Assembly (NCBI GenBank): GCA_013399875.1
Contig: VXAZ01009368.1
Span: 6,607 to 70,606, forward strand
Length of the DNA stretch: 64,000 bases
Source of the DNA: Gymnorhina tibicen
Lineage: Eukaryota; Chordata; Aves; Passeriformes; Artamidae
Direction: 5' to 3'
Shown one piece after another: positions 2,119-55,800 of the stretch. The notes beneath the pieces are model-generated. The model was not told where the DNA came from and ran no database searches. It saw only the letters and a program-made list of their open reading frames with translations. Position numbers and translations under genes: made by a program. Each line of letters starts with the position of its first letter. The stretch's first letter is position 1.

Positions 2119-2177
2119 GCTTGTCTTGTTGTTACCATGCAAAGGACAATTTAATGTGCCGTGATGTCTGTGAACAG
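2119..2177 (+). CDS. RECK: RECK exon 2: first CC repeat
   Basis: Preceded by a pyrimidine-rich tract and 'catag', followed by 'gtaagc'. It starts in phase 1 (GC completes a Gly codon) and ends in phase 0. It encodes [19 protein letters not shown], the CC...C...C signature of the first cysteine-knot repeat. The 3818-nt intron that follows holds a CR1 fragment (4470-5141) and otherwise only AT-rich sequence. Confidence 0.97.
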
Positions 2178-5100: not shown

Positions 5101-8100
5101 CCTTCCAACCTGAATTATTTTACTATTCTATGACCTCAGAAGAGTCAAAATACTAATGCAGTTCTTTTTTTGCTCTCCTTTCTGAAACAAGTGCTGTTGC
5201 TTTCTTGATTTTCTTTCAATAAGTTTATCATGTTAGAATAGAACATAGTTTATCGTGTTAGAGTAGAGCAAATTTAGAATAGAACTGTAATGTACTTTTC
5301 CTTCAGAAATTCATCTATTTCAGTTATATCATTTCCAGTTTCATATCACACATTAATAGGTCTGTTTGCATTCCTCTTGTTGACCAGTTTCTTGTTTTCA
5401 TTTGTAAGTAAATCTTAATTAGACTGCTAAAGGAACAACGTCCTCAACATCTTCAGTTGTATTCCATCCATCCGGTCTAGCCAGCTCCTGGGTGTTCAGT
5501 TTGCCTGTGGGTACTATGCATTTTCCTATTAGTTTTGATTATCTCTTTAACTAGTCTAGGTTTTGTTCTTCCTTTTTCCACAAAAATTCTTGTTTCAGGG
5601 TTTTCTTGAAGTTTAATTGCTTAAGGTCATGTACCATGTAGCAGAAGGTTAATTAAGTAAATAGCATTGTATAGTATTTTGATATGTGTGGCAGAAATCC
5701 TCCAGTTCACATTGCCCTCCCACATTCAGTAGAAACTTTTTGATTGAAATGTTTGAGGAGGAAATTCTCATCCTCTTCTAAACAGAAAAAATTGCTTCTC
5801 TATAAAAAGTGAAACGTATTTGAAAAACTACAAATACATAAAAATAAATCTTAAATTTGCGTTGTATACATACTGTTAGGCAAAGTTGTTGAAGAGTACA
5901 TATTAGAGACACTAAAAATAATGAAGTCAATTGAAAAAAGTATTTGATGTGCCATTACATTCTTTATGTTTTAAGGTGTGTTTTGTTTCTAACAGATTTT
6001 GTCTTCTAAGAGTGACTCCCGTTTGAAGCACTTACTGCAGCGAGCCCCTGAGTATTGTCCAGAATCAATGGTAAGGCTTGCTAGAAAAGCTCTTCAAATG
6101 AGGTTTGAACCTCAAAGTAGGATTTTTTTTTTTCAATAAAGCCATCATAAATTATGCTACTTGCAATAAGATGGCATGTATAAGCTATAAAATGCAATGA
6201 AAATGTTATCTATGTTGTAAAAAATTGTGCTGGGTGATTGTCACTTGGATGTTAATGATAGTGATTTAAATTAGATCATACGTTCCAGCATGTGTATGGC
6301 ACAAAGCCATGAGGTCTTGGGCTAAGACAAGGAGGCCCTGAGAGCTGCACCAAATTGTTTATGGCCTTATCTGAGAAACTGAAGTAATGCTTTTACTGGT
6401 TTTAAATAAGATTATGGTTTCCTAAAAGTTCTTTAGTCTCACTAAAGTTCTTTAGTTTCACTGAAAAAGAACGTAATCTGCTCCCTCTTCTAGGGATGAT
6501 CTAATCAGGGAATAGGTAAGTCCAGTCATTCAGATTGTAAATTTTAGATTCTTATCTCGTGGCAACCTTTTGCAGTCAGAAAAGCCTGCTTTCTTCCGGT
6601 AATTTCTGTTACTTCTGAACAGTATCAATGCTGTTTGCAGCAAGCCTAAAACATATGCTCATTTCAAGTGGGCAATGAGTAGGAGTAGTAAATCTGGGAA
6701 TAACATTTGATAAGCAACTTCACAAGATTGTGTTTGCTTATAGATCCTTTCCTTCTGTGTGTCGAAGTTCCTTGAGTTTTTTGTTTCTGTGGGTCAACAG
6801 CTCTAAGGTCTCGGAAAGTTATAGACAGCTCCTGGTATGAGTAAAACCTGTCATGAAAACCTATCGAGGTGATGAATAGCATTTGGTTTGGTACTGGTTT
6901 TCTTTATCTTTCATTCCCTGATAAGACGAGTAGAATCTTATCTGTATATTAGAGAAGTGCTTTTTATAAGACAGGATTGGAGATTATCTGAAAGGGGGAA
7001 AATGACACAATGATTTTTATAATTCCCAATTGCTATCTTTATAAATGACAAGTTAGCTGTCCAGTGTGGATCCTAAATTAATACCACTGAACTGGTAATA
7101 CCTAAATATGTAAAATGGTTAACAGTCCAACTCAGTACCATATTTGCTGTGTCATTGTGTGACAGTATGGGTTGCTGTATCAGTGTGATTGAAACCCCTT
7201 TTTTAATTTGTTTTCTTTGTGGTTATGTGTGTTTAGGTTATTTTTAAGCTGGTGGAAAGGAACGCTAGGGCAATAAGCTTCTCCACAGGTCTTGGTCCTA
7301 GACAAATCTTACTCTTTGTCTAAGTTGCTGTTTAGTTCTGTAAACACTGATGGAGTTGACTAGCTTGTGTATTCCAGATACCTACATTAGGTTCTGCATC
7401 TGCAAAAATGCTGCTATTGATTCTGTAGTCTGTGCATAGCAGCCTTCCCGTCAAAGGAAATGGTACTCAGCTTCTATCATAGTACTTCTTTAGAAGGTGT
7501 TTAAACATAAGAATTCTTCCAATCAGATATTTAAAACCCAGTGAAAAAATACTGAAATTGCTGGCTTGAGTCTGCTAGAGCTCCCGTATTCTGTCAGCTT
7601 GCCTTTGCTTAATTGCATTTTTACTTTTCAGAGAGAAGTGTGGAGTTGTATAAATTCTTCTTTGCCAGGTAAGAAATACCAGTTGGCTATTGAATCACGT
7701 TGCTTTTTCACCCTGTGTATGTTTTGATGTTGTGTCTACCACCTGCACCTATAGATTTCATGATAATTTAACTTCCATTATGTATCTAATATAAACTGTA
7801 TGTGGTGTCTAATTTCCTCTAGTATATATTGAGTTACCTATGTATTTTTCTTAATACTTTTCCTAGTTAGAAAATATTTAATATGTTTGTATAATTAAAT
7901 GTCTTCTTCCGTGACAAATCAAGGAAATATCAGCAAACTGTTGATTCCAGTGCTTATAAACAGACTTTCTGTCTTATTGGTTAAGTAAAACTGACAAAAT
8001 ATATTATCTTTGGGAGTTGCAGTGTTTCTGTCTCATCTAAAACCTGATAAATTTTTAGCTGATAACGATACTTAATCTTCCTTGAAGTTCAGTAGTTAGA

Positions 8101-11100: not shown

Positions 11101-14100
11101 GATTTTTGAACAGTGATTGCAAGCTACTGATGTGTGCACAACAATGATCTCTTTGACACTGTCAAAAAGATGCTCAACCTCTGAAAAACTAATTCTGCAC
11201 CCCGATAGTGGAAGTGAAAGGTGAGCTGTACTTGCAGTTGTTTGTGACCTTCACAGCTGCTTTGAACTAGTGTGAATTGGAAACCTGAGCCACTACTCTG
11301 AAGAGGTGTCAAGAGGATTTTGAGAGTCTCCAGAAAGACCTATGGATCACAGGCCTGCAGTGCCTGCAGAGGGTCTGGACCATTCAGATGGTCAGACTGA
11401 CAGAATACAGGCTACAACCAGAAGCTGTTCTGCACCTTTGCCCCTCTGCTCCCTCCACCTGCTGGGCAATGCTGCTACTTTACTTGTGTCAAGCATTAAG
11501 GTTTTAATTTGTATTTTATTTAGGCTTATTTAATTTTGTTAGGCTTATTTTAATTTCCATGGGTAATGTGTTAATTTAGTGGAGATTTTGCTCCTCCTTT
11601 ATTAATTTGTCATTAGTGCATTTTCTTAATTCACCCTTTGGAATGTCATGAAAGACAGGTGCTGGCAAGACTTTCTATGCCACCTGTGTTTGTAAAGCTG
11701 ACAAAGTGTATTTTAAAGGCAGTTTTCTTCATGATAAATACCAATTGGCGATTGTTTTCCATTGATTGCAATTATTTTTTATTACTTTTTTCCAAGTGTT
11801 TTCTTAGCATCTAAATTTAAGATCGCTGGTCTTGCACCTTGCTCTTTCATTTCCCTTTTTTAAAGCTGGACATCCCATGTGGCTCTTCTAAACAGGCATT
11901 TCCACTAGGCTTAAGAGCACTTTTAAATTAAGTTGTTCATTCTTTTACTTTCTGCTTTTTTATTTCTACATAAAGAATATAATTTGTGTATGTAATAAAG
12001 TACTGCTTTATTTTTTAAATATTCATAACAAAAATGAGTGGTTCATTTGAGTTAAATAATTCTACCTCCTGTCCTAAGAAAAAGAATGTAACAAGTTTGT
12101 CACAGCTGCTGGGCAGCTGCATAGATCAAACCTTTGCTTTATTTCTGTCTTTAAAGTTACATGAGAAATAGATACAGGAATGCGTTCTTTTATTTCTGGT
12201 GTCTTGAAAACATTAGAAAATCTGTATTTATTATTAGATTAAGAGGATGAAACAGCTTATGGCAGCAATTTGCTTCTTACCATATTTCTATGTAACTTTA
12301 TGGTAAGAAATGATGATAATGCAAATAGTGAAATAAGTGATTAAGAGACAGGGAGATGGGAAACTTTTATTGGAGATAGTTCTGGCTATGAAACCATGTT
12401 ACTGGGGAGATAAATGACAGAGGAAGTGTCATGAATTAACCCCAGTAGGTAGCTAAACACAGTGTTTGCTCGTTCCTCCATCAGCGGGAGAGGGGGGAGA
12501 ATCAGAAGGCAACAGTGAGAAAACCCATAGGTTGGGATAAAGACAGTTTATAATTTAAAAATAGAAGGAAAATCAAAGAAAGGAAGAAAAAACCCAAACC
12601 CAAGAAAAACAAGTGATGCAATAGAAAATAATTGCCTACCATCAACCGACTGATTACCAGCCAGTCCCCAGGCAGTGGCAGCCCCCGCCATCATCAACCC
12701 CCAGCTTTTATGGCTGAGCATGGTGCCATGTGTTATGGAATGTCAGCTGGGGTCAGCTGTCCTGGCAGTGTCCCCTCCTGACCTCTTGTGCATGCCAGCC
12801 TACTTGTGAGTCCCTATGGAAAACAGAAAAGGCCTTGATGCTGCCTCTGTTACCAGTAACTAAAACATCCCTGTGTTATCAACACTGTTTTAATCAGAAG
12901 TCCAAAACATATCCCCATGCCAGCTCAGCTGAAGAAGTTTAACTCCATCCTGACCAAAACCACCACCACAGGAAGTTTGGAGAGAAAGTAAAGAACATTT
13001 TCTGCGTTGGCAAAGTTGGTAGAAAAATGTGCTATTGAAACAAACAACAGGATGTATCTGTAAGAGATTATGTTCTCAGTTTTAGTGGGACTTTTTTCCT
13101 AATGTTTTTTTGTTGTCTTATATTTCAGATTAGATAGATTATCAAAATCTAATACTTCCATTGAGCATATAAAGTAGTTTGCATAAAGCATCTTTAACCT
13201 CAGGGTATGGAAGGTACTTCATTAATTGCTAGTTTCAGCATTTATGAAAGCACAGGTTTGTTCTTTTTTTGCTTAAAGTTGGTTTGGAATTCCAATAAAA
13301 ATACAATCTGTACATAGGCTTCTTGAATGAGAACAGGATTATCAAATTTGAAAAGTAGAGGGAAGGGAAAATTGTGGCATAGTTTCTCTTTCTACTCTCA
13401 TTAAAGTCTGTCATCTTGTTTCCAAAGGAGTTTTGAAGAAATCTGATGGGTGGGTTGGTTTAGGCTGCTGTGAGCTGGCTATTGCTGTGGAGTGTCGGCA
13501 AGCCTGTAAGCAGGTAAGGATTTCCTCTTACTGACTGAATCCAGACTGATTCTGCAGCTCTCGTTGGTTATGCTAAACTTAATTTTGACTTTTTTTGTCA
13601 CAGTCTCTACATAAAAGTTGTTGCTTTAAAATAATGTTGAGTGGAAGGCAACGTATGGCTGATCCTAAGCTCTTTTTTTGTAGTGCCACGTTTAGTGATA
13701 CAACATTGGAGTTACAGCCCCAAACAGATTTTTGTGCCTCTTCAAAGCGGTTTTTGTTCATCAGATGGAAGAAAGGGGTTTTTTTTTGGTTTTAATAGAA
13801 CCAGCGTTTTTGTCAAGTAACAGTTTCAGGCGTAATACATAAATTCAGCAATGACCTATTTATTTAAAATATGTGGAGAATTTTGTGATTTTTTTTCCCC
13901 CTAAATATGTGTCTGTGGCTTTAAAAACATCTTCAAAATCTAAGAGCATATTCATATTTATCATTCTTGTAATTCATTTGTGGAGCACAGATGTACTTAA
14001 TATTCACACTTATGAATGTTACCTCTGTAGTCTTAATCTTGACCAAGCAGCCTACTGCAAACTGCTGTCATAAGAAAAAAAAAAAATTCTACTTTAACCC

Positions 14101-17100
14101 AAAAGCACAGAGTTTAAACTATGTGGCAAGAGATGAGCAGTGAGTACACAGAGTAGTGTGGGAGAGAGATGAGGAGTGAGTAAACAAACTGGGTACTTTT
14201 GATCTTCTGAAAAGAAGATGTATGTTTATTCTCAAATGCATTTTTTAGCCATGTTTTCAAATTTGTCCTAATGCTTAAGTGTCTTCCAGATCTGATAGAC
14301 ATTTCTCTTTATTGCAGTCTTATTAACTTCTATTAATTTAATCCTATGATTGTTACATCATTTCTCATTATTTTCCGAATCAGATGTTGTATTGTTTGAT
14401 TGCAGACTGTTGTTTCAGAATCTTGGCTATATTTTGTACTTTAGCAGACTCTGGTTAAAACATTTCCTGTTATTCTTCATTTATACTAAAATCTAAATAC
14501 TTGCCAAATATTAGGGATAATGGGAAATATTTGGATTTTAATTTTGGTTCTTGAAACTTGAGGGGATTTTGGAATAATTTTGAAGGCGGTGATATAAAGG
14601 GGTTGTTAGGGCATGCAGGAAAAAAATTAGAGAGGCCAAAGCTCAGTTAGAACTTAATTTGGCAACTTTTGTGAAGGATAATAAAAAATGTTTTTACAAA
14701 TATAATAATGGCAAAAGGAAGAGTAGGAATGACCTCGGTTCTCTACTGGATGCAGGAGGGAATTTCGTGACTGCAGATGGGGAGAAGGCAGAGGTGTTTA
14801 ACGCCTTCTTTGCCTCAGTCTTTATCAGAAAGATGGTTTGTCCTCAAGACAGCTGTCCTCCTGGGCTGGTAGATGGTGTCAGGGAGCAGGATGTTATCCA
14901 GGAGGAAGCAGTCAGAGACCTGCTGAGCTGCTTGGATGTTCATAAATCGATGGGACCAGCTGGGATCCACCCCAGGGTGATGAGGGAGCTGGCAGATGAG
15001 CTTGCGAAGCTGCTCTCCATCGTTTACCAACAATCCTGGATCACTGGTGAGGTTCCAGATGACTGGAAGCTGGCCAATGTGACGCCCATTCACAAGAAGG
15101 GAGGAAGGAGGATCCTGGAAATTATAGGCCCATCAGCCTGACCTCAGTACCCAGTAAGGTAATGGAACAGTTTATTTTGAGTGCCATCACACAGCACCTA
15201 CAGGATGGCCTGGGGTCAGACCCTGCCAGCGTGGGTTTAGGAGGGGCAGGTCCTTCCTGACAAACCTAATCTCCTTTTATGACCAGGTGACCCACCTGGT
15301 GGATGCGGGAAAGGCTGTGGATGTTGTCTACCTGGACTTTGACACTGTTTCCCACAGTAAACTCCTGGAAAAGCTGGCAGCCCATGGCTTGGACAGCTGC
15401 ACCGTTCACTGGGTTAAGAACTGGCTGGATGGCTGGGCCCAGAGAGTGGCGGTGAATGGTGCTGCATCCAGTTGGTGGCTGGTCACTAGTGGTGTCCCTC
15501 AGGGATCAGTGCTGGGGCCAGTCCTGTTTAATATTTTTACTGACGACATGGATGAGGGTATTGAGTCTATTCTTAGTAGATTTGCAGATGACACCAAGCT
15601 GGGAGCGTGTGTCGATCTGTTGGAAGGTAGGAGGGCTCCGCAAAGAGACCTGGAATGGTTGGATAGATGGGCAGAGTACAATAAGGTGAAGTTTAACAAG
15701 TCCAAGTGCCGAGTCCTGCNAGAGGAGGGCAACAAGGCTGGTGAAGGGCCTGGAACACAAGCCCTGTGAGGGATGACTGAGGGAGCTGGGGGTGTTTAGC
15801 CTGGAGAGAAGGAGACTCAGAGGTGACCTTATCACTCTCTACAACTGCCTGAAAGGTGGTTGTAGTCAGGTGGGCGTTGGTCTCTTTTTCCAGGCAACAA
15901 CTGCCAGAACAAGAGGACACAGTCTCAAGCTGTGCCAAGGGAAGTTTAGGTTGGATGTTAGGAAAAAGTTTTTTACTGACAGAGTGATAAAGTTCTGGAA
16001 TTGTCTGCCCAGGGAGGTGGTGGAGTCGCCATCCTTGGATGTGTTTACAAAAAGATTGGATGTGGCACTCAGTGCCACGGTTTAGTTGAGGTGGTGTTAG
16101 GGCATGGGTTGGACTCGGTGATCTTGAAGGTCTCTTCCAACCTGGTGATTCTGTGAAAACAGTTCCAAGGTCAGACTTTACCCAGGTGTTTTAAATTACT
16201 GGAGGGGGAAGTAACATGTTAGTAGTTATTACGGTTTTGAATATCTGCCATATGGGAAAGGAGCACAAGGTTTTGTATAGAACAAAGTGATGTGCAGTTT
16301 AAGGGGAGAATTTCTGCAACTCAGTTTGACAACAGGAGCCATAGAACTGAACATACAGGAGGGAGGAGAATAGAAAGCGACACATAAGTGTTAATTAGGA
16401 TGCAAAATGGGGAGATCTTCGTGCTCAGGCTCTTCTATTTCTTAAATGCTTCCTGTATTCTGCTCTATCTGGCAAACCTTTCACGAAACCAAAGTTGCTT
16501 TGTGTGCTTCCACTATCAACTAACTTGGTGCAGAAATATGAGGGTTTGAGTTTTCATTAAATGTTACATTAACAGTCATGGCTTCTCCTTTTTTTCCTTA
16601 AAGCTTTACATAGATTCTTTAGGTTCTTAAAGGAATATTTTAATAGATCGTAAATCTATGGTTATTACAGTTAATTTAAAATTAGAACTGTCTTTATTTT
16701 GCAACATGATTTTATTATTTTCTACTACAAATGGAAAAATTTATCTGTCTTTCAGGCTTCTGCAAAAAATGATGTTTTAAAGGTCTGCAGGAAGGAATAT
16801 GAGGTATGTTTTTATGTGTCTGAATATATCTGAAAAAAATCAACTGTTTTATAAGTTCTGTAAAAAGTATCCTGTAGAAAAGTCCAGTCTTTTTTGTAGT
16901 TGTATTTCTGAATGTGCTCATATTCATCCAAATGTAAATTATCTCTCTACAGTTTTTATAAAAGTATAATCACCTTGTGTAAAAAAGTTTTGGATTTTTT
17001 AGACTTGCATATACCTTAATTTAAATGAAAAGTGTGCAACTTTCAAAATGGAGACATGGATTCCCAAAAAGTTTATTTCATAGGAGTTTTGATCAAAGTC

Positions 17101-20100
17101 AGCATTGATTGTGATCATTTAATCTGTCAGAAACCTTTCAGCTTGGAGAGTGGGAGACTCAGCTTAAAAGTGACCTAAAGAAATAAACTCAGGAAAGAAT
17201 AGCCTTTTAAGTATCCTATCTGAATATAAATAATTTCAAATGTATAATTTTTTGTAACATCAGTGGAACTGTTGATGCTTGCAGTTATTTTTACTGTTCT
17301 GCTCATAAAATTAATCATCAGGATATCTTCAGAAATCTGCCTTTACCTATGTTCTTTTTAACACAAAATGCTACTCCGCAAGGACTGCTTTTCTTTTGAT
17401 CTTTGTCTTAATTAAAAGCCCGATTCCTCCTGCCCCCTTTCATCTCATTTCCTTCTGCCCTGAGTTAGGTAGTCCTGCATCAGTTCTGCTCATAATCAAC
17501 AGTTCAGGATATCAGACAATTTTCTGTTCTTTGATTTGGGCAGAAGTGGAGTAGCTTTCCTTTTTTTTCCAGGAAGCATTAAATTACTTTTTTAAAAATT
17601 TGTTTTCCATTTGATCCTTTTATCTAAACAATTACAGAGTATTTTCCTAGACTCGTCACTGTGGAGGTTAGTGTAGGTTGAAGTTTCCGTAACTTGTTCC
17701 CTTTAAAATGCATTTTCATTTTAAGTATTTCTGTCTCCTTTCATGCTATAATATGCTATACTGTCAACATCTGCAAGCTTCTCTTCTATTATGCTGGTCT
17801 GTTTCCTTCTTTTTTTCTGGATTTCTGCTTTGCTGTAGGAGGTTGGCCAGTATGGGTTGAAGGAGAACGGGAGAGGAAAGGTAAGAGAATAAAGAATGAC
17901 TTCAAAATGGTCATAGTCATCTTATTTACTTTTCCAGTTTTTATCTGGAATTTTGAAAACTGGGCCTCTCACTCTTGATTAAGAGTGATCTTGCTGTTAT
18001 TGTACAGAAAACCTTAATGCTTTCTATCTGTGCAAGACTGAAAGAGAAGGAGAGGGAGAAAAATCACAGTAGAAGGAATCAATCTTCTGGTTAGGGAAGA
18101 AGGAAATAACTTTTTTTAATGAGGACTAGGTGTAGTAGATACAAATAGTGTGTCAGGAGAAATTAAGTATCTGGTGTGCTAGATCTTCAGATATTATAGA
18201 ATTTTGTATGGCAGTGGTTTTTCATATGTATCCAGGCTTACAGGTGCTCATGAAAAATAGTAATAAGAATGCTCTTAAGAGGATCATTAGTTGTACAAAA
18301 TACAAGGAAATTTATGCCTAAGATTGAAGATTCCAGATAATACTTTTGGAGGGAACCTGCAGTTTCCCACACCAGGTCATTATTTCTCATTAAAAAAAAA
18401 AAACAACCAAAAAAACAGGGTTCTTGCTGCTTTGGTGTATGAGTCCTGCTTCCTCTGTAGTCTGTGAGTAGCTTCCGTGTCCTGTACTGTACTTTGCATT
18501 CGGTGGAGTTGGCTGGGGAAACACTGAGCTGGGGAAGGAGTGGCTACTTCAAACTGAAGGCGGTGACATGAGATCAGAAATAGCATGTGAATCGCATAAA
18601 TACAATGCCATATATACTGTGTTTGCTTTTGCATTTAAGAATTCATTCTTTGCTAAAAATGAGGATCCAGTTAGAAAACTAGTTTGCAAGTATAGATCAT
18701 GGTGCTTGTTCATCAGCTCTCAAGTCTGTTGCTGAGGTATTTAATATATTAAGTACATGACATAAAAGTAAAAACTAGATGAGTTAAGGATGTAAAATAT
18801 AATTTCCTTTTTTGTAAACACTCTCATAGCTTACCAGCTTTCTTAACTTACTTAGCTTGCTCACATAAGGATTTCCCAGAGAATTTTCACAAGCTGCTTA
18901 GAATAATCTGAACTGTGCATAGTACACTTTTGTCATCTTTTGAGATTAGGGAAGCAACTTCATGAGTTACCCTTCAGCCTCCCACTAAGTTAGTGAGGGT
19001 GAAGAAGGAGGTAAATATTCAAGGGTAGGGCATAGTGTTCTGAGCAGTGAAAAAAGCCAAACTCCATGCAGGAAGTGTCACCAAGGTTGAAGTCACTAAG
19101 TGGAGTCTCAGGTTGTGCAGTAGCAGAATCATTTCAGCATTGATGTGCCAGCTTTTCACAAGATTAATCGAAGATGCTTTTTCTGCTGATCGTATGTTTC
19201 TGCATTACTTTTACTGTAAATATTTATGTTTGTTTTAATTTGGAGATTTTACACATCTTAGAAAAGTATTATGTTGGAATAAGAGATTTATTTTTGATCA
19301 GTGCATTGAAGATGGCATGTCCTGTTAAACTATTTTTATTTTCAAGTAGCACTGCATACAGAAATGAATTATTTAACACAACTTGCTCAGTATTTTTGAG
19401 TGTTACCGAAAGGTATTTTATTTGCCTTCTTTTGAAGGTTTTATTTTGATAGTCCTTTTTTCCATCTTCTGCTTCTCGGATACTCATTTTGTCGTCTTCA
19501 TTTTTCCTCTAGTTCTGTGCACCTCAGTTCTTTTATCTTTCCCTACTTCTTCCAGCTTTCTGCTATCCTGTTCATCTTCCTCTAAAAAGAAGGTAGGTAA
19601 TAGTCAAAGGAAGAAGAAAAAAGAAGTGGAGACGGTATGCATTGTATGTAGGATTTTCTGATTTTTGTATTTTTAAAAATTTCATGTAAAGTGGAGGTTC
19701 ATTTTTTAAAAGACCACATGGAATACATGCTTGGAGGAGCAACTTAAAATACTTTATTAATCTTAAAATAAGCTGTAAAGGCTTTTATTACTATGTTTAT
19801 GATCCCTTTTCTTCTGTGCATGGAAAGGGTAGCACTAAAGTTTCCCTTAGATTGCAGCTCTTGAGTCTGTGCACTGCATGTTGTGAGTTCACCTCTCTGA
19901 ATATTAAGAACTCCAGTTTTTACTTCATGTGTTCCAAATAAGACATTCAAATTTATCTAGTTAATTGGCACTGCGAGAGCTTTAGTGCAGCTGAGCAGTA
20001 TTAACATCTGCCAAGCAGTTGAAACGCAACTGGAAATGTCACCAGTTATTTAGTCTCTGCTCTTAGAACTACTTTTGATGCACAGTAGTGAACATTTTTT

Positions 20101-23100
20101 ATGTCCCTGGACTGTTTAAAGGTAATTTTGCTGTCACAGATTTGAGCACTCTTTAGCCTAATCTCACTTTGGTATTTCACAGTTTTTTAAACACAGAAAC
20201 TTCAAATGCAGTGCCTGCAGCTTCAAGTGCTTTAATGGAGATTCAGAAAAGTATTCACTCTGCTATAGTATTGGTTTGGTTTTTTCTTCTAAGGTCATAT
20301 GATCCTGCTTTATGCTGAGATTTTTTAGTGAATGCTGGCTACTAATTACCCCTGCTGAAAAATGCAGTCATCAGTTTTTAGCTCTTATCTAATTGTTTGT
20401 GTGGATTACTCTGAGACAATAGATAATAACTCAAGGAACTGTATAGAACATTGTTTAGCTAAAGGTTCCTAAACAGTTTTAATGAACTCCTAAGGCACAG
20501 GACTGTGTGTGGCCTCTGGAAGTGCTGCTTAATGAATTCAGGATGGACTCTGAGCATACACTACACATTGTAGATAATGTTACTGTCATCTGCTGGTGCT
20601 TTTTGTCTCTATTCTCTGCTGTTCAAAGAAGGTTGATAGAACACTCAATGATCTTGCCAAAATTTGAGTTCCAGTAATTTTGCGCTACCTCACTGTGCAA
20701 GTGTTTTCAATTCTTTACTGGTTTACATAACTGAGGAAAATCTTGACCTTGCTTGTTTATTACTGCAAGTTTTTAAAGTTTTTAACAGATGTTCACCATC
20801 ATTTGACACTTCAGCTGATTCCACTAAGCTTTAGTATGTTACCTTCTGACTTTTATCTTCTCTCAATAAATTCAAAGATTAAATGAAGTCAAGGAGAGAT
20901 CAAGAGGGTTTTCTTTTCTGTGCTTAACTGCACAGAGTTAAGCATTTTACTATTGTGTTTGTTAACTGTAGGTAATACTAATAAATTAAGATGGCCTTAA
21001 TTGGATAGGATCTAGATTCAAATATTTGTCATGGTTGGGTTGCCCAAGACAATAGTACTAAACTTATTCTTCTGCCAAAGTTAGTAGAATATAGATACTC
21101 TGATAATTTTTAGGGAGGAAAATAATTTTTTGTGGTTTTTTTGCAAAATACTCTTAATTCTAACTCTTAAAATTTAAAGAAATTTTTAAATTTCTTGATT
21201 TCTGAAAGAACAGCTTCGCTGTCGATTTTCATTCAAGACACAAGAGGCAGCCATTTAGAGAAAATGTGCTTATAATATGAAAGCATGCCTCACAATGCAG
21301 AGGACTTCTTCCTTCGGCGAAATGTTCTGCTCTATTTGCGTTGGGGTGCGTGCATTTTTGGGTTTTGAGCCGTTACCTGCAGCTGATGAGCTCCAAAAAG
21401 AGCGAAACCAGTTAGGTCCTGCAGTACTGGCTAAAATCTTCCTTCGGGGGAGGTTCTGATGAGGAAGACTGAACAATGTTCTCTGCTGCATAAACCTCAA
21501 CAGCCTTTTTCAATTTCCATAACACCAAAAAGAAATCTTTGAGACTTTTTGCTTTAAGGCGTACGTGGTTGTGTTGCCGGTGTCTGCCTGCCACTTTTCA
21601 CTCCTTCTGCTTATAGTCTCTCTGGCTTTAATCACCAGCTTTGGAAACACCTGGTTTTAAAAAAAAAAAAAGAAGTCTGAAAGATGGGATTTGTGCACAA
21701 GTAAAACAGATCACTGTGTTTGTGGTTTAGAGATTTTGATATTGCCATCTTTGTTCACTTAATTTAGTAATCAACACAAGTTGAAAATGGAGTATCAGAC
21801 TATGTGTGTACACAATATTGCCTTTTTACCATCATTGTCCCAAATCTTGATGACTTAATTGTTCCTTTAAAGAGAACATACTTTTCTCCTCTTTTGGTTT
21901 TTCTGTTGGTTGGCTGGTTTGGTTTTGTTTTTCCTTACCTATACCTATCTTTTATCTTTTGCTTTGTTTTCTGTGTCTTTTTTCACTGCCAGTTCACTCA
22001 AAGATTCAGAAGGAACCTTGAGTGGGCAGAAAAGCTGGTGACTTCTTAAATATGAGTGCTACTTTAGTAGAGATGGACATGAACCTTGTGTTCTGAAAAG
22101 AAGTTACAGTTAGTAATTCAAATCAGACTGACTGTGTAATGCTGTTAACAGCTTTATTTATGAACAGATGATTAGACACTAATTTTCAAAATTTTTTTAT
22201 GATTCATATCTCTGTAGCTATACTGCTCACTATGTACTGTTACATATAAACTGAACAGTTACCCAGACCTACATAAAAAACCAAGTCAGTCCCCTCACTA
22301 GCACTGTATTCTATGGTGGCTACAGACACAGTTTTGTGCAATATGGTGAGTTGCTGTAACAACTCAGTGCAGCTGAAGTTCTTCCCCTGCCTTCCTGCAA
22401 CTGCCATTTTTCCACACACATTCCCTCCCCCTGCTTGCCTTACTCTCCCTCTAGCATCTGGCAGGTCCTTGTAAAAGATGGTATCTAAAAACAGCTTGTT
22501 CTGTTCTGTTCTAACGTAGCTGCTTACCTTTTGATATCACTGACTTAAATTCCTAGGGGATGAGAAAAAATGAATTTTCAGCAGGGTTAGAGAGAAAGAT
22601 CAGACCATGAGAAGGTGATGGTGTAAGGGCATACACAAGACTATACAGCTGGGAACAGAGATGTGGGATTCTGTTTTGAATTCCACCTGTTGGTCTTGCT
22701 ATGCCTTAAATCACTCCTCCCCTGCTGGGGGAGGATTTCTGAGTCCTTGCCTGGATCTTNNNNNNNNNNNNNNNNNNNNNNNNNNNNNNNNNNNNNNNNN
22801 NNNNNNNNNNNNNNNNNNNNNNNNNNNNNNNNNNNNNNNNNNNNNNNNNNNNNNNNNNNNNNNNNNNNNNNNNNNNNNNNNNNNNNNNNNNNNNNNNNNN
22901 NNNNNNNNNNNNNNNNNNNNNNNNNNNNNNNNNNNNNNNNNNNNNNNNNNNNNNNNNNNNNNNNNNNNNNNNNNNNNNNNNNNNNNNNNNNNNNNNNNNN
23001 NNNNNNNNNNNNNNNNNNNTTCTTCCCAGAGAGTTGGCAGCTTTCTCCATGGACGAAGGTCAAAACCAGTGTGTTCCAGGGGGGTAAAACTCCTTAAAAC

Positions 23101-26100
23101 AGGCAGGGATATATTCCCCGCAGGGAAATATTCCCACACAGGGACAAGACGGAAAAGAGAAGCCGGACCACCTCCTCTTAACAGAAATATGAGGATTATT
23201 ACAGCAATTCAGCAGTCTGTGGAACTGTAGTTTCAAAATACAGAAAGAAGATTTATATCAGGTTAGGACTTCCTTCCTGTATAAAATTCGTGTGCAAAAT
23301 TGCTGTGAGAAGATAATTTTGTCTCAATTTGAGCCCTTCTTTAGAGGAGGAACATTAGTAGATACTACTTCTCAAAATTCTCCTTCTGTGTCCTCTGAGC
23401 AGGGCAAGTGACACTATTATCCATGAACTTCATTAGAATCACTTTTTTGTATCATTCAACTTTTAAATAACATGACAGTTTTTATCTGAGTTTATTGCAG
23501 CATTAGCATATGATTCTAAGTATTGTATGTGCTGACAGCATGGTCAAATACTTGGGTATAACCATGACAGACAGACTTTAGACTTTCCAGCAGCCTCCAC
23601 TGTCCCAGTGCATTAATTAATAAAGTTATGGTGTTCATTCTACCTGGCTGGCCTGTGTGCCACCTTCCAGTGCAGGGAAGTCTAATTTCCAGCAGCTTCT
23701 GAGGACAGTCAGTTTTGGGGCAGAGTGATGCTGTGTGTGGTAGGTCCCAAAGAAACCGGGTGGCCTCATCAGACCAGGGCCTTTCTGGTAACCTTTGCTT
23801 GGCATCCACAGAGAAGGATATATGGTGCTACAAAAATGTCATGAGCCTTTAGGCAACAGTATAAATCGATTCTTTACAGCTGTAGGATGGTGACCCCATC
23901 TCTGTGTTCTTGTTCCATTTTCTCTTGTCCCTCATCTGTGTTACATAGATGGATGGGTAGCAGGACTTGGTTTGTGTATAGAAAAGATGGGAAAATCTAA
24001 AGTTAATCGGATGAAAACGTGCTGCTGGGATGAAGAATGTTGCTGCAAATTCATCTTAGTCTGAGAGAAATAATGCAGTATCTGTGCTTTTGGGAGAAGA
24101 GATCTGAAATATTGTAGAGGATATTTTTGGGATGAAAATAAAATGTCTGAATTGCTAGTTTATGAGATTTGGGGCTTTGTTTTATGTAAGGCAGATTTTT
24201 CAGGTTTTGTGTGAGGTGTACCAATAGACCTGTGCCTGTATTTGTGATCACTAGAGTTATAAATATTTGCTGTCTGAGGAAAAATAACTTACATTTTCAA
24301 GTTAGATTTACTTATTCTTTTAGGGTCTTTCGTTGACACATCTGCCATGGCTTACCCAAGGTTTAAATTAATTTCTGAGCGTTAACAGAAGAAATTTGAT
24401 GCTGCTCATTACAGTACTGGGACTGTCCTGTTTAAAATCTTGTGTTCAGAAGAAAGCAAGTAGAAAATACGAATGAAAAACAAATTCCTGCACACTAAAC
24501 AATATCTAAGACAAAAGGAAAAATAAAATCATCAAGTTAATTCCTAACACATTTATATTTTCATCTGTTTGCAGAGTACAGATTTTCACAAAAATAGCCC
24601 AAAGATTATTTGGGTTACCCACTTCTCTGCAATGGAGTGAATAACTAGTAACTAAGATAGATGAAGAATCTGGTGAGCTACTGAGCCTAAACTAGGTCTG
24701 CATTTTGAGCTCTCTGCCTTGTCTTACAGGTAGTAGCACATCTGGTGCTTTCCTGTATTGAAGCAAGACTTTAATCCCACATTATTTGGGATCAGTCTGA
24801 TGGTATTTCTGTTTTCTTCTCCAGATACTCTCTTCCGTATGAAATACAAATTTGTTTAATTATAGGAATAGGGGAAATGGAGATCATAAATTTTATGAGG
24901 ATGGGGATTGTGTTTTATCACTATCTTAATGTATTTGATCATGTTTTATAATGTGGTGTTCTGACAATTGTAGAAGTTAGATGTGGAGGAGGTTCAAATT
25001 TCTCTTTTTTCACAACCATAAAATTGTTAAGTCTTTATAATTGGCAACTACATTTTGGAATTTCAACCGCATGACTTCATGTTTTCATAGAGTTCCAGAC
25101 AGCTTATATGCAGTATCTAATTTTTTTAAATGGGAAATGTGCTTATTCAATGTGGGGAAGACTGTGGTTGTTTTGGCAAGAGTTCAGTAGTTGTGAGGGA
25201 GGGGATTCTGCCCCTCTGCTCTGGTGTGACCCCACCTGGAGTGCTGCATCCAGGTGTGGACTCCTCAGCACAGGAAAGATGTGGACCTGTTGGAACGAGA
25301 CCAGAGGAGAGCCACAAAGAGAGATGGAGCACCTCTCCTATGAAGACAGGCTGAGAGAGCTGGGGTTGTTCAGTGTGGAGAAGAAAAGGGTCCAAGGAGA
25401 CCTTATAGCACCTTCTGGTGCCCAAAGGGGGCCTACAAGAAAGCTGGGAATAAACTTTTTGGCAGGGCTTGTTACGATAGGACACAGGTTAATGATTGTA
25501 AACTAAAAGAGGGTAGTTTCAAACTAGATACAGAGAAGAAATTTTTTTATGATAAGGGTAGTGAGGCACTGGAACAGGTTGCCCAGAGAAGCTGCAGATG
25601 CCCCATCCCTGGAAGTGTTCAAGACCAGGTTGGATGGGGCTCTGAGCAACCTGACCTAGTGGAAGTTGTCCCCGCCCATGGCAGGGGGTTGTGAGTAGAT
25701 GAGTTTTAAGGTCCCCTCCAACCCAAAGCATTCCATTACTGATCTGCAGATTACAGACCTCTGAAACAAACAAGCAGGGTGTGTGTGTGTTTCCCTTCTT
25801 CTGACATTTAACATGTGCATCCCCCAGCTGTGCCTTTTGGATGCAGTTTGAGGGAGTCGGTTGCATGCTTTAGCTTTTAAGGTTTGTTGTCGTGGGGTTA
25901 TTTTGTTGAGATTTACTATTTGCATGTATCCATCAGTGCAGAATTCTTTTTTTCTACATAGAATCTTTAAAATCATTGTCCTTAATAAAAAATCCCACCA
26001 TTTTGGGACACCCTGTTATAGCAGCTTACCCTGTTTCTAAGTTAGTCCAGGAAAGTCTTCCAATTTACTTGGTTCCTTGAATGTTTATCTTTTTTGTTAT

Positions 26101-29100
26101 GAGTGCACACAGAATTTTGGTGACCCTTGATCTTTTAGTTTCCTGGTTTCACTGTTTGTATAGTGGTTTTGTTTTAATGCAATCTAATGGAAGCAAATAA
26201 TACCAAAGATTTATTGGCTCATTATAACAAATGACTGGATACTTAAATATTTATTTGAAGTTTTCTGGCTTGTAACACTGCTTTTGTTTTGATTTCAGAA
26301 TGCTCTCTTTAGTTGTATTAACAGAAATGAAAGTAAGTATATAATGAGTAGTTTGTCTTGTTTTTCTTTTGTATCATTCATTTTTTCTCTAAACTGTAAG
26401 AGATTCTATGGGTGAACATATACACAAAGGATTTCAAATCTGAAATCCTTATATGGATTTCAGATCCGTATAAGGAAAAACCACATGAGTAAATTGCCTT
26501 ACTCAAGTAATAAAGGGATTGGGCTGTTTGTATAGTTAATATCAGTTTTTAATTTGTGTATCCCTATTAGTTTTTTCTGTCATCTTTTTCTTCTGCTTAT
26601 TCATTTGATGCAGGCTAAGTAGCAAAATTAAATGTGTAGTTGAAATTTTGAAGAACCATGCAAGTGTTTTGTTGCCTGATACCTGTTTATATAAAATGAA
26701 ATCAGTGCCTCAGAATTAATTCTAGTAGAAGTTGTTCTCCAGAACTACTATGTATTTAACAACATAGCAAAAATGGGTGAATCACAATACCATCTGTCTG
26801 GGTTTTTTGAATGATACTACTCTCATATTTGTTTGTTTATTAGCAGTATTTCTCTAATAATTCAATTCTTGGACACGTCTGGTTACCTAAAATAAGAACA
26901 AAATAGTTGAAAATGAGATTCAGCTGGCTTGCTCATGTCTTGAACTTGAGTTCAAGGCGGCTTTAGTAGTGACTTTTTTCTCCTGCCAGACAAACAAATG
27001 TAGTTTGGCTAGTTACAGGTATTTCCAGTCATTCTGTAGACAGAGATATTTCAATAGAGCATAAAATTTCTTCTTTTTTTTTTTTTCCCTTGAGCATCCT
27101 TGTGTGTTGTACAGACATGCTCATCTCTTCATTTCTCTGTGCAGGAACCCATAGATTTCCTGTTGTTTGTTTGTTTGTTTGCCTCCCCAGTGGGGTCAGT
27201 CTGTTGCAGCTACGCAGGTCACCACACCAACTGCCGGGAATATTGCCAAGCAATTTTTCGGACAGACTCCTCTCCTGGTCCTTCACAAATTAAAGCAGTT
27301 GAAAATTACTGTGCATCTATTAGCCCTCAGCTTATACACTGCGTGAATAACTACACACAGTCATATCCAATGAGAAACCCTACAGACAGTAAGTAGAAAC
27401 AGATCTTCCTTTACTGAAAGTTATAGAAGATACTGAAAATGTACTTCATATACGTTTTATATCAGATGTGTTATTGTAGAAGTCTATCGTATAAATTGTT
27501 TTACTGTAATCGTATGAATTTATATAATGATAACTTTTGGGTGTAGGTGCATTATTGATTTTTACGTACTCTCCATTTTTACATATTGGTTTTGTAGTTT
27601 TTTACCAGGGTTGATTCTGTATGTGTTGAGGAGAAGCAGTGTTATTTGAGATTCTTCAGAGGAGAAGAATCCACCTTGCAGCACTTTTATTTCTCAGGGC
27701 TGTTAATGTTGTGCATCTTCAATGCTGTTTTGTGCTTGACGATTAACTATTTTGTTAACAGGTTTGTATTGCTGTGATAGAGCAGAAGACTATGCGTGTC
27801 AGGCTGCTTGTAAAAGAATTCTAATGTCAATGAAAACAGAGCTTGAAATTGTTGATGGACTTATAGAAGGCTGTAAAACCATGCCTCTCCCTCAGGACCC
27901 ACTCTGGCAATGTTTTCTTGAGAGTTCCAGATCTGTTCACCCAGGAGTCACTGTGCACCCCCCACCTTCAACAGGCCTCGATGGAGCTAAGCTCCATTGC
28001 TGTTCTAAAGCAAATTCTTCCACATGTAGGTCAGTATCTCTCTAACCTCATTTCCGTTTGTGAAAGTACTTAAGAATTTGTCTTATTTCACGCCTTTGCC
28101 TGAATCTTACTATGTACATCAAATGGAAAGTTCCGAAATTCTGAGAAGAAATACAGGTTTAGGTAATCAGACAGTAATCTGTTGGGTAATATTCTGTCCA
28201 ATACTTTGTATCTCAAAACGTACTGTTTTGTGAGAGGAATCAACATTTTCTCACATTTAGCACTGGCTTCTTATAGCAGACACAGTAAGATGATGAAACC
28301 TGTACCATACTTGTGGTTGTAATAGCCAATATTGCAACCCCTGGTTAACAGGTCTTAATGAGATGCTAAAGAGAGACAAGAGGACAATGAACTGCACAAA
28401 CTCTCAAGTGCCTGGTTGCTTCGTGTTAAAACCTTAGCAGTATTCCTTATTAGATGCTCTTCTGGTTTTTGTCAGTTAAAAATAACTTAGGTTATTTAGT
28501 AATTAAATAAGGGAACTAACTATTCTGGCATTTAGAAAAACAAAGGTTTTCAGCAAATTGTTGCATGCTTGCAAATTACTGAGGCATTTTTAGTCTAGGG
28601 TGGTTTTCTGTCCACTTTAAAAATAGATGATGATTGCATTTTAAATGCATCAGTGTGCCTAAATAAGTGGCAAACATTTTTGTGCTATTACTTCCTTTTA
28701 TATCAAAGTTTCCAGTAACAACAGTTCGTGAATGCAGCAGGATTTTTAATGAGTTTAGTAATAGAGCCCTGGAGTTACATTATTTCGTAGAACATTGTAG
28801 CATAGAAAGTTGATAAAATATCTTTTAGTCCCACGCTTTGACAATGAGTTCTAAAACTGGATCCTTCTATCAAGTTTTCAGTAGGCAGGAGATCTAATAG
28901 TACAGTGTAGTTCCATACCTTGGGATGGGAACAGTTGTTGCTTGGAGGATATTGCTGTGAACAAAGTGAGCTGGGTATTGCTGACACCAAGAAGCATCTG
29001 AAACAAAAGCAGTAAAGAGAATCCCTGTTTCAAGCATCAGGGCAAAAGAAGGAATGTATTTTTGCTTGACAGTCACTTCTGTAGGAGGAGGAAGTGTGAT

Positions 29101-52870: not shown

Positions 52871-55800
52871 ATCAAATATCTTTGAAATGTCTTACTTTGT
52901 GCTTCTAACCCACCTGCAGCCATCCCACAGCGCTGTGCTGCATCCGCCAGGCAGGTACTTGACACCCTTGGAAAAAAATGGCACTCACTCAGCAAGAGGG
53001 TTGAATTTGTCCAGTCCTTCCCTATCAGGATAAAAGTGGTTACTAAACATCCAGCAGCCCTCCTGGCTTGTATGAGAGCTCTGTGCTTTACTTGGGCAAT
53101 TCAACCTACAATTCAGTGACAATAGTTCTGTGTTTGAAAAGAATCAAGTGAGTTGAAAATGCATTCCATACATTATTACTTATCCCTGAAGAGTACATAT
53201 GTTCTCTCACATATTATGGCCTTTTCTGTGTTGTGAAATGGAAGGTCTTGCCCAAAATACACAGGTTAGTAAAAGACTCACAGCCATAACCCAGATGTCT
53301 CTACTTTGAATATTTAACACTCAGGTCACTTGTCTAGAGTTTAGTTGTATCACAGTTTCAGATCTATTTTTTGAAGTTTGCATTGAATTATGGCTTCAAA
53401 ATGCTAATCTTTTAACACAGAAATCCTCTGCTCTCCAAAACACGTATCAATTTCACAGGTTCAAAATTGCTGCTGTGATGTCTGCAGAAACTCACAAGAT
53501 TTTTCATAGACTGTATTCCTCTGATGATTTTTCACAAGGCAGATCTAGTATGCACTAAGCATTTCAGAAACACCTCTGTGGAGAGGAAGCATATGAGGTG
53601 TTGGGCTCAGGTCTGTAATTGCTGACAGCAATGTACCAAAGTTTCTGAGAAGGAACTCAACTTTCCTGAAATTCAATACAGAAATAGCTAAGTACAGTGT
53701 GGGAAACATTTATTTTGATAGACTCAGGAGGACATCATGCTCTTGTGGTTTTAAAACAAACCTTCAACCCTAAGATTAAAAATCTAAACGCTGTGGCCAG
53801 GGTTGTGTTCCCCACAGAAATCCCGTAGGTGGCATCACAGCACAAGGTGAATTACGTTTCAGCTGCTTTTGATTTAGAAGGAATGCAGCCGCCTTGGGAT
53901 TTTTATTTTTCAGTTGTTTTTGTTGCAAGCTAACACTTTTCTACAAGTTCTGCTTTCTGTGCCACTTCATTCTCAAGATCAAATCTGCACAGGCTTAAGT
54001 CTCTCTTGCTTTATGAAAACTTACTTCCTCCTGCAGATGCCTATGAAAACATACTCAGGGCTGCCCCGAGAATGCAATTCTCCAGTTGAGAAGTACACCT
54101 GACATCAAGGACATGTATGGATAGAAATGAGTCAAATCCCCAACCATAATTTTTGTCACCGGCAATCTAAAAAGTTCATTTAACTGGGTACTTCAGGGGT
54201 GAATCAAACACAGGCACATACACAGACACACTCTAAAGGTTTCAGTGCTTGTGAACAAAGAAGTGAGTATTTTGAAGATTTTTTTTTTAAAAAAAACCCT
54301 GGTCGTTCAAAGAACTCTCGTGCAGACCTGAAATTATCATGAATCACAGTAAATTCAGCATTATGTCTTAATTCAGAAGTGGAGGGAAAAGCAAATGAGT
54401 GCATTAATATCTGAACAACGACCACTACATGTCAGCACCATTTTTAATCTGGCATCGGGAAAACCAGCAAGGAGCCCAGGGCACAGACGGGACACAGCCC
54501 CAGTTCACCACACGACCATCCTGGCCCCAACAATGGCCATCAGGCACAGTGCCCCTCGCTCCAATTACAGCAACATCGGTTCACTTGATGTGCAACCACC
54601 TGGGCACAACGTATATCATCTCCTGTTGAAAAGAAAAAGCAGGTAAATTGAGGCAGGGGTGCCCCAGGGCTGAGCCGTGACTGGAAGCCCGACCCCAATG
54701 CTCTGCTTCTCCCTTGCAGCTGACTTATCATACAAAGCAGAATAAGAAAATAGTACATTTTTATTTAGCAGTATGGAGGAAAGGAGGGAGGGGAAAAAAA
54801 AAAAAAAAAAAGAAAAGCCCACTAATTCCCTCACCCTGCTGAGGACTTCTTACCAACGTAGTATTTCCAAGCACAACTTATCCCTCTGCCCCGGGCTGGG
54901 TCTGCTTACGGGGTTTGTGAATTTCTTTGTCTAGAGCTGCCTGTTTAAATTTTTGCCCTCCTAATTCCTTAAGAATCCACCTCCTCTCACCCACAGAGAG
55001 GGAACAGGGAACTGGCCCCACCAGCTAAACATCTTCTAATAGTAATGTTACTGTATTTAGGAGGCTTTATGGCTGCAGATTTCCCAAAGAGAAATCTGTG
55101 TTTCTCAGCATGATACAGATACTCCAGCAAAACCACAAGTAGTTCTAAAAATGCTCAACCACAGAGCAGTACAAAGCAAAAGCTTTATGCAAGTAACAGA
55201 AACCTGCCAGACAGTTAATTTCTCTTCCACCTACTCCAAAACCAGCGGAGAAGATATACAGATTGCAGATTTTTGGTTATTTCAAGATTTTTGCCAAGAT
55301 TTTGGGGTATTTCTATGACAGTTGACCTCATTGCCCCAGAAGAACATGTGGCTTAGGGCAACAGAAACAGTAGGAAGCATCTGCTCTGAGAAAATGTCTT
55401 TTTTTTTTTCTATTAATAGATCATTTTGCTAAGCTCTGTTTCCCCAAGAGCCTTGCACTATTAAGAGGTCTTTATTGCTGCTGCTGTTGTTCGGATTCCC
55501 TCCTCCTCTCCAAAACGAAAGCATTCAGAACAGTATGTGCCATTTTTTGAGTATTTGTATTAGATTATTTTTAAAACATTTTATTTTATAAATATGACAT
55601 TTTATTTCTTAGTTGAATAATTTTTATTAGAAAACCTCCAGTCCAAGCTTTCTAATTCACCTGTTAAAGAACAAAACCACCATCTGAAGAATCCAGTGGC
55701 ACAAGCATCACTTGTGAGATGAACCTTTGCCCTGTCCAAGACTCCGTGGGCCTGGCAGCCCCAGCCCCTTCGGTGCAGCAGCACCAGTTTGGTCTCATGC

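Follow-up and report, generated by a model that had tools for sequence, protein, structure and literature searches.

A predicted HH9 hammerhead ribozyme near the middle of RECK intron 6 in Gymnorhina tibicen

The 64,000-nucleotide stretch of Gymnorhina tibicen DNA analysed here (the window) carries exons 2-18 of the RECK gene on the forward strand. Segments of the RECK protein chain in PDB 8tzp (8tzp_C) align to this strand in order (Table 1), with ten more exons after exon 8 reaching to about 41.57 kb and to chain residue about 826 of 971. Exons 3-7 are preceded by AG and followed by GT, and when joined they are open in a single frame. The ribozyme described below is flanked by exons 6 and 7, with 4,615 nt between its predicted cut and exon 6, and 4,880 nt between the cut and exon 7. 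A reading made from the DNA letters alone (the sequence-only reading) had placed it in the largest RECK intron. This holds for the 16 introns that our mapping covers, from exon 2 to exon 18: intron 6 measures 9,495 nt and the next largest, intron 4, 5,759 nt. The human HH9 ribozyme is located in RECK intron 6 (PMC12842694). The intron is orthologous by count, with exons 2-6 mapped upstream and exon 1 assumed to be single. A run of 260 N occupies positions 22760-23019 of the same intron, 1.3 kb from the ribozyme on its 3' side.

Table 1. RECK exons around the ribozyme-bearing intron and the parts of the ribozyme, in window coordinates.
Feature	Position	Strand	Sequence, size or pairing	Basis or remark
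RECK exon 2	about 2119-2177	+		8tzp_C match
RECK exon 3	5996-6070	+		8tzp_C match
RECK exon 4	7632-7668	+		8tzp_C match
RECK exon 5	13428-13513	+		8tzp_C match
RECK exon 6	16756-16803	+	48 nt, 16 residues, in frame	8tzp_C match
RECK intron 6, ribozyme-bearing	16804-26298	+	9,495 nt	predicted cut at 49% of length
Structured part of HH9 match	21368-21432	+		covariance fold
Outer stem I	21368-21372 and 21428-21432	+	AGCCG paired with UGGCU	covariance fold, coordinate check
Stem I internal loop	21373-21376 and 21425-21427	+	UUAC and UAC	covariance fold
Inner stem I	21377-21382 and 21419-21424	+	CUGCAG paired with CUGCAG	covariance fold
Catalytic core	21383-21389	+	CUGAUGA	covariance fold
Stem-loop II	21390-21403	+	GCUC 21390-21393 with GAGC 21400-21403, loop CAAAAA	
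Core GAAA	21404-21407	+	GAAA	final A opens stem III
Stem-loop III	21407-21417	+	ACC 21407-21409 with GGU 21415-21417, loop AGUUA	
C17 and predicted cleavage site	between C21418 and 21419	+		from hammerhead numbering on the covariance fold
Stem I 3' arms	21419-21432	+	CUGCAG and UGGCU with internal loop UAC	
RECK exon 7 (microexon)	26299-26332	+	34 nt (11 residues + 1 nt)	8tzp_C match
RECK exon 8	27191-27388	+		human residues about 147-213

The entire window was searched on both strands with covariance models of 4,227 Rfam families. Hammerhead_HH9 (RF02275) matched positions 21365-21441 of the forward strand over the full length of the model (1-77 of 77) with a score of 99.4 bits (E 8.3e-26), well above the gathering score of 52 bits that defines membership of this family. 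This was the sole match at gathering scores on either strand. At E <= 5 the search listed 12 matches in the window; the 11 besides HH9 fell far under their own gathering scores, and 7 of them coincide with a TA/CA-rich repeat at about 50.1 kb. The element has the CUGAUGA ... GAAA ... NUH core and the three stems of a hammerhead and is open at stem I, which makes it type I. Hammerheads share a set of invariant bases and a common numbering, and the core was assigned on this basis. C21418 is presumably C17 in that numbering, in agreement with the cut that the sequence-only reading had predicted between 21418 and 21419. The other hammerhead elements that it had described at 21363-21436 are likewise present in the sequence and the covariance fold where it put them. 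Its identification of the element as HH9 is supported by the full-length match to RF02275, by the RECK exons on either side and by the intron number, the same as in human.

The core alone is not decisive, because a loose core descriptor (CTGANGA, a stem II of at least 3 bp, GAA) is expected by chance about 0.6 times in a 64-kb strand (0.575; mean of 40 Markov-1 resamplings). Two matches were observed on the forward strand, namely the ribozyme and a site at 55684 that by eye is without the A needed to open stem III, and none on the reverse strand. What decides the matter is that the full model matches, and does so in the gene to be expected. We found nothing in favour of a chance match to a short motif and can give it practically no credence, given an E value of 8.3e-26 over 77 positions within the gene and intron where HH9 is expected. 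On this sequence evidence the element is almost certainly a complete type I hammerhead and the orthologue of HH9, located in RECK intron 6. This HH9 copy is real, complete and already known, and is nothing new in kind.

The window copy differs from the RF02275 consensus at 11 of 77 positions. Of the 65 positions in the structured part 4 are changed, and of the 12 outside it 7. Two of the four structured differences form a compensatory change in outer stem I, A21368-U21432 in place of the consensus G-C pair, and the other two are in loop III, at 21410 and 21411. The remaining seven are in the 3' tail (21433 and 21436-21441). The catalytic core shows no difference at all. The exact conservation claimed by the sequence-only reading is slightly too strong in view of these structured and outer differences. 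A paired change such as that at 21368/21432 is what selection on the fold would predict, with the proviso that this is one pair set against a consensus and not a count over many species. If instead the DNA were conserved for another purpose, as an enhancer or protein site, with ribozyme activity being incidental, the absence of any in vivo cleavage effect from the literature examined (excerpts of PMC12842694, PMC6155905 and PMC3088659) would be as expected. We nevertheless regard such a function at the DNA level as improbable, since the compensatory pair, and the fact that all other changes are in loop III or the 3' tail, are expected from selection on an RNA fold, and since cleavage in vitro has been reported (PMC3088659).

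The RNA of positions 21363-21436 has a nearest-neighbour minimum of -22.4 kcal/mol (z -2.34), and 2 of 200 shuffled sequences folded equally well or better. This lowest-energy structure differs from the hammerhead in that CUGAU of the core is paired with GUUAG from stem-loop III. Folded as a hammerhead, the window copy has an energy of -19.7 kcal/mol, which is 2.7 kcal/mol above the minimum, in a calculation that omits tertiary contacts within the core and between loops. For the Rfam consensus the corresponding energies are -20.8 kcal/mol for the hammerhead as drawn and -26.3 kcal/mol for the minimum. Keeping the core single-stranded gives -26.2 kcal/mol for the consensus and -20.9 kcal/mol for the window copy. 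The pair probabilities of stem III are 0.06-0.08 in the window, compared with 0.35-0.42 in the consensus. These energies suggest that the loop III change may slow cleavage. They predict, but do not show, that the ribozyme is slower or can be switched.

We considered whether the ribozyme lies within the remnant of a mobile element. It is bracketed by an 11-nt direct repeat, TCTTCCTTCGG, at 21307-21317 and 21437-21447 (130 nt apart), which might be read as a target-site duplication. This reading was rejected. The repeat is not evidence of insertion, because 30 of 2,503 window positions (1.2%) gave a direct repeat of at least 11 nt in the same test and this one was found after the fact. Nor would a target-site duplication be likely to persist under neutral drift from the common ancestor of birds and mammals to the present. 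A repeat search of positions 20400-22600 yielded 12 families of direct repeats (two copies each, 14-22 nt) and 17 inverted pairs; no link to the ribozyme could be made for any of them. The locus does not qualify as a retrozyme or Penelope-like element: the window has one hammerhead and no tandem copies, the flanking repeat does not mark element ends, and the forward frames of intron 6 show no element protein. A second CTGATGA nearby, at 21456-21462, was rejected as a further hammerhead: it was missed by the core descriptor, and the Rfam search at E <= 5 lists one hammerhead. In the window as a whole the heptamer has six occurrences per strand. An exact scan of viral contigs with a 27-nt core pattern gave no matches.

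No Pfam family was found in intron 6 at E 0.1 in the three forward frames of positions 1-27500, 260 bases of the intron being N, and ARAGORN found no tRNA. Two matches to solved structures in intron 6, obtained from translations in which stop codons were read as X, were taken as chance because they run through stop codons or are without a Pfam match: a TetR-like match at 19891-20199 (E 0.0059) and a T4 RNase H match at 24942-25289 (E 0.029). The lone reverse transcriptase in the forward frames of positions 1-27500 is an RVT_1 fragment in RECK intron 5 (15221-15718, forward strand, E 4.6e-21). It is followed by a 3' end with GATTCTGTGA at 16147, and fragment and end together occupy 15221-16156. 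An end of this kind is a hallmark of avian CR1 elements and by itself makes a bird the most likely source of the window. On the reverse strand, a 90-residue open frame at 63491-63760 matches PF19627, the family of ADNP N-terminal regions (E 1.6e-14), and is perhaps an ADNP-like gene or a retrocopy.

Human and pig sequences of the RECK hammerhead self-cleave in vitro, and the ribozyme is kept in mammals and birds (PMC3088659). A later paper states total conservation in the two groups, and proposes that the ribozymes were domesticated from retroelements and have a role in alternative splicing (PMC6155905); a 2026 review calls the biological significance of HH9 elusive (PMC12842694). A demonstrated cellular role was not found in the excerpts of the literature examined, in which a splicing role for RECK is a proposal and not a demonstrated effect.

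A splicing role could operate as follows. The nascent intron 6 would fold once RNA polymerase has passed, and would cut itself between 21418 and 21419. Cutting and the joining of exon 6 to the 34-nt exon 7 would be in competition, and the inclusion level of these two small exons would be set by the cleavage rate or by any factor acting on it in either direction. The frame survives skipping of exon 6 alone (48 nt) but is shifted when exon 7 (34 nt) is skipped, by itself or along with exon 6 (82 nt in all); loss of exon 7 in either way would remove full-length RECK. Of the roles considered we find this one the most likely, and put the odds that the ribozyme biases inclusion of exons 6 and 7 by co-transcriptional cutting at roughly even.

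The time available can be estimated. At the polymerase rates of 3.5-4.1 kb/min given in PMC10919898, transit of the 4.88 kb to exon 7 would by our arithmetic take about 1.2-1.4 min. The same paper reports that fast intronic ribozymes lead to unspliced mRNA and that slow ones are without effect, and that the rate of the Cpeb3 ribozyme matches the polymerase travel time to the following exon. The splicing model for RECK needs a slow or regulated rate, because one that cuts fast on the scale of 1.2-1.4 min should impair splicing all the time. In an extension of this model, HH9 would be a timer for a frame-setting microexon: whether intron 6 is cut before exon 7 is joined would decide between full-length RECK and a frameshifted RNA. 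The regulated off-state would be the competing fold in which pairing of CUGAU to bases of loop III masks the core, a fold predicted to be stronger here than in the consensus. We regard this extension as a long shot.

Another possibility is that HH9 is genuine and has a conserved role in the intron RNA, where cleavage releases or trims fragments or speeds turnover and exon joining is unaffected. The position of the ribozyme near the middle of a 9.5-kb intron, distant from both splice sites, would suit such a role, as would two cattle ESTs in which U5 or U6 snRNA sequence is joined to precisely the 3' product of cleavage, in keeping with ligation of free intron ends (PMC3088659). Against this, the flanking exons are reported to be apparently alternatively spliced (PMC3088659), which favours an effect on splicing, and we consider a role confined to the intron RNA rather unlikely. 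To what is known of HH9 the RECK copy described here contributes the compensatory change in stem I and a definite layout of the locus, with the ribozyme about halfway between an exon of 48 nt and one of 34 nt whose loss shifts the frame.

Among known systems, the mammalian and avian Hammerhead_HH9 family (RF02275) is the closest, with a match over the whole model, an identical core, the same gene and the human intron number; the window copy departs from it at the 11 of 77 positions detailed above (two compensatory in stem I, two in loop III and seven in the 3' tail). The Cpeb3 ribozyme is of the HDV-like class and not a hammerhead. Like the RECK ribozyme, it is a self-cleaving RNA in a long vertebrate intron, for which a co-transcriptional splicing model exists (PMC10919898). 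The mammalian C10orf118 hammerhead is also intronic and has identical stretches in common with the RECK hammerhead, but it is located in a 5' UTR intron of another gene and has a pseudoknot, which the RECK hammerhead apparently does without (PMC3088659). The hammerheads of animal retrozymes and Penelope-like elements share the type I architecture and have been proposed as the source of the intronic ones of amniotes (PMC6155905, PMC7229834), but those elements are mobile and multicopy, whereas the RECK locus is a single hammerhead in a gene intron.
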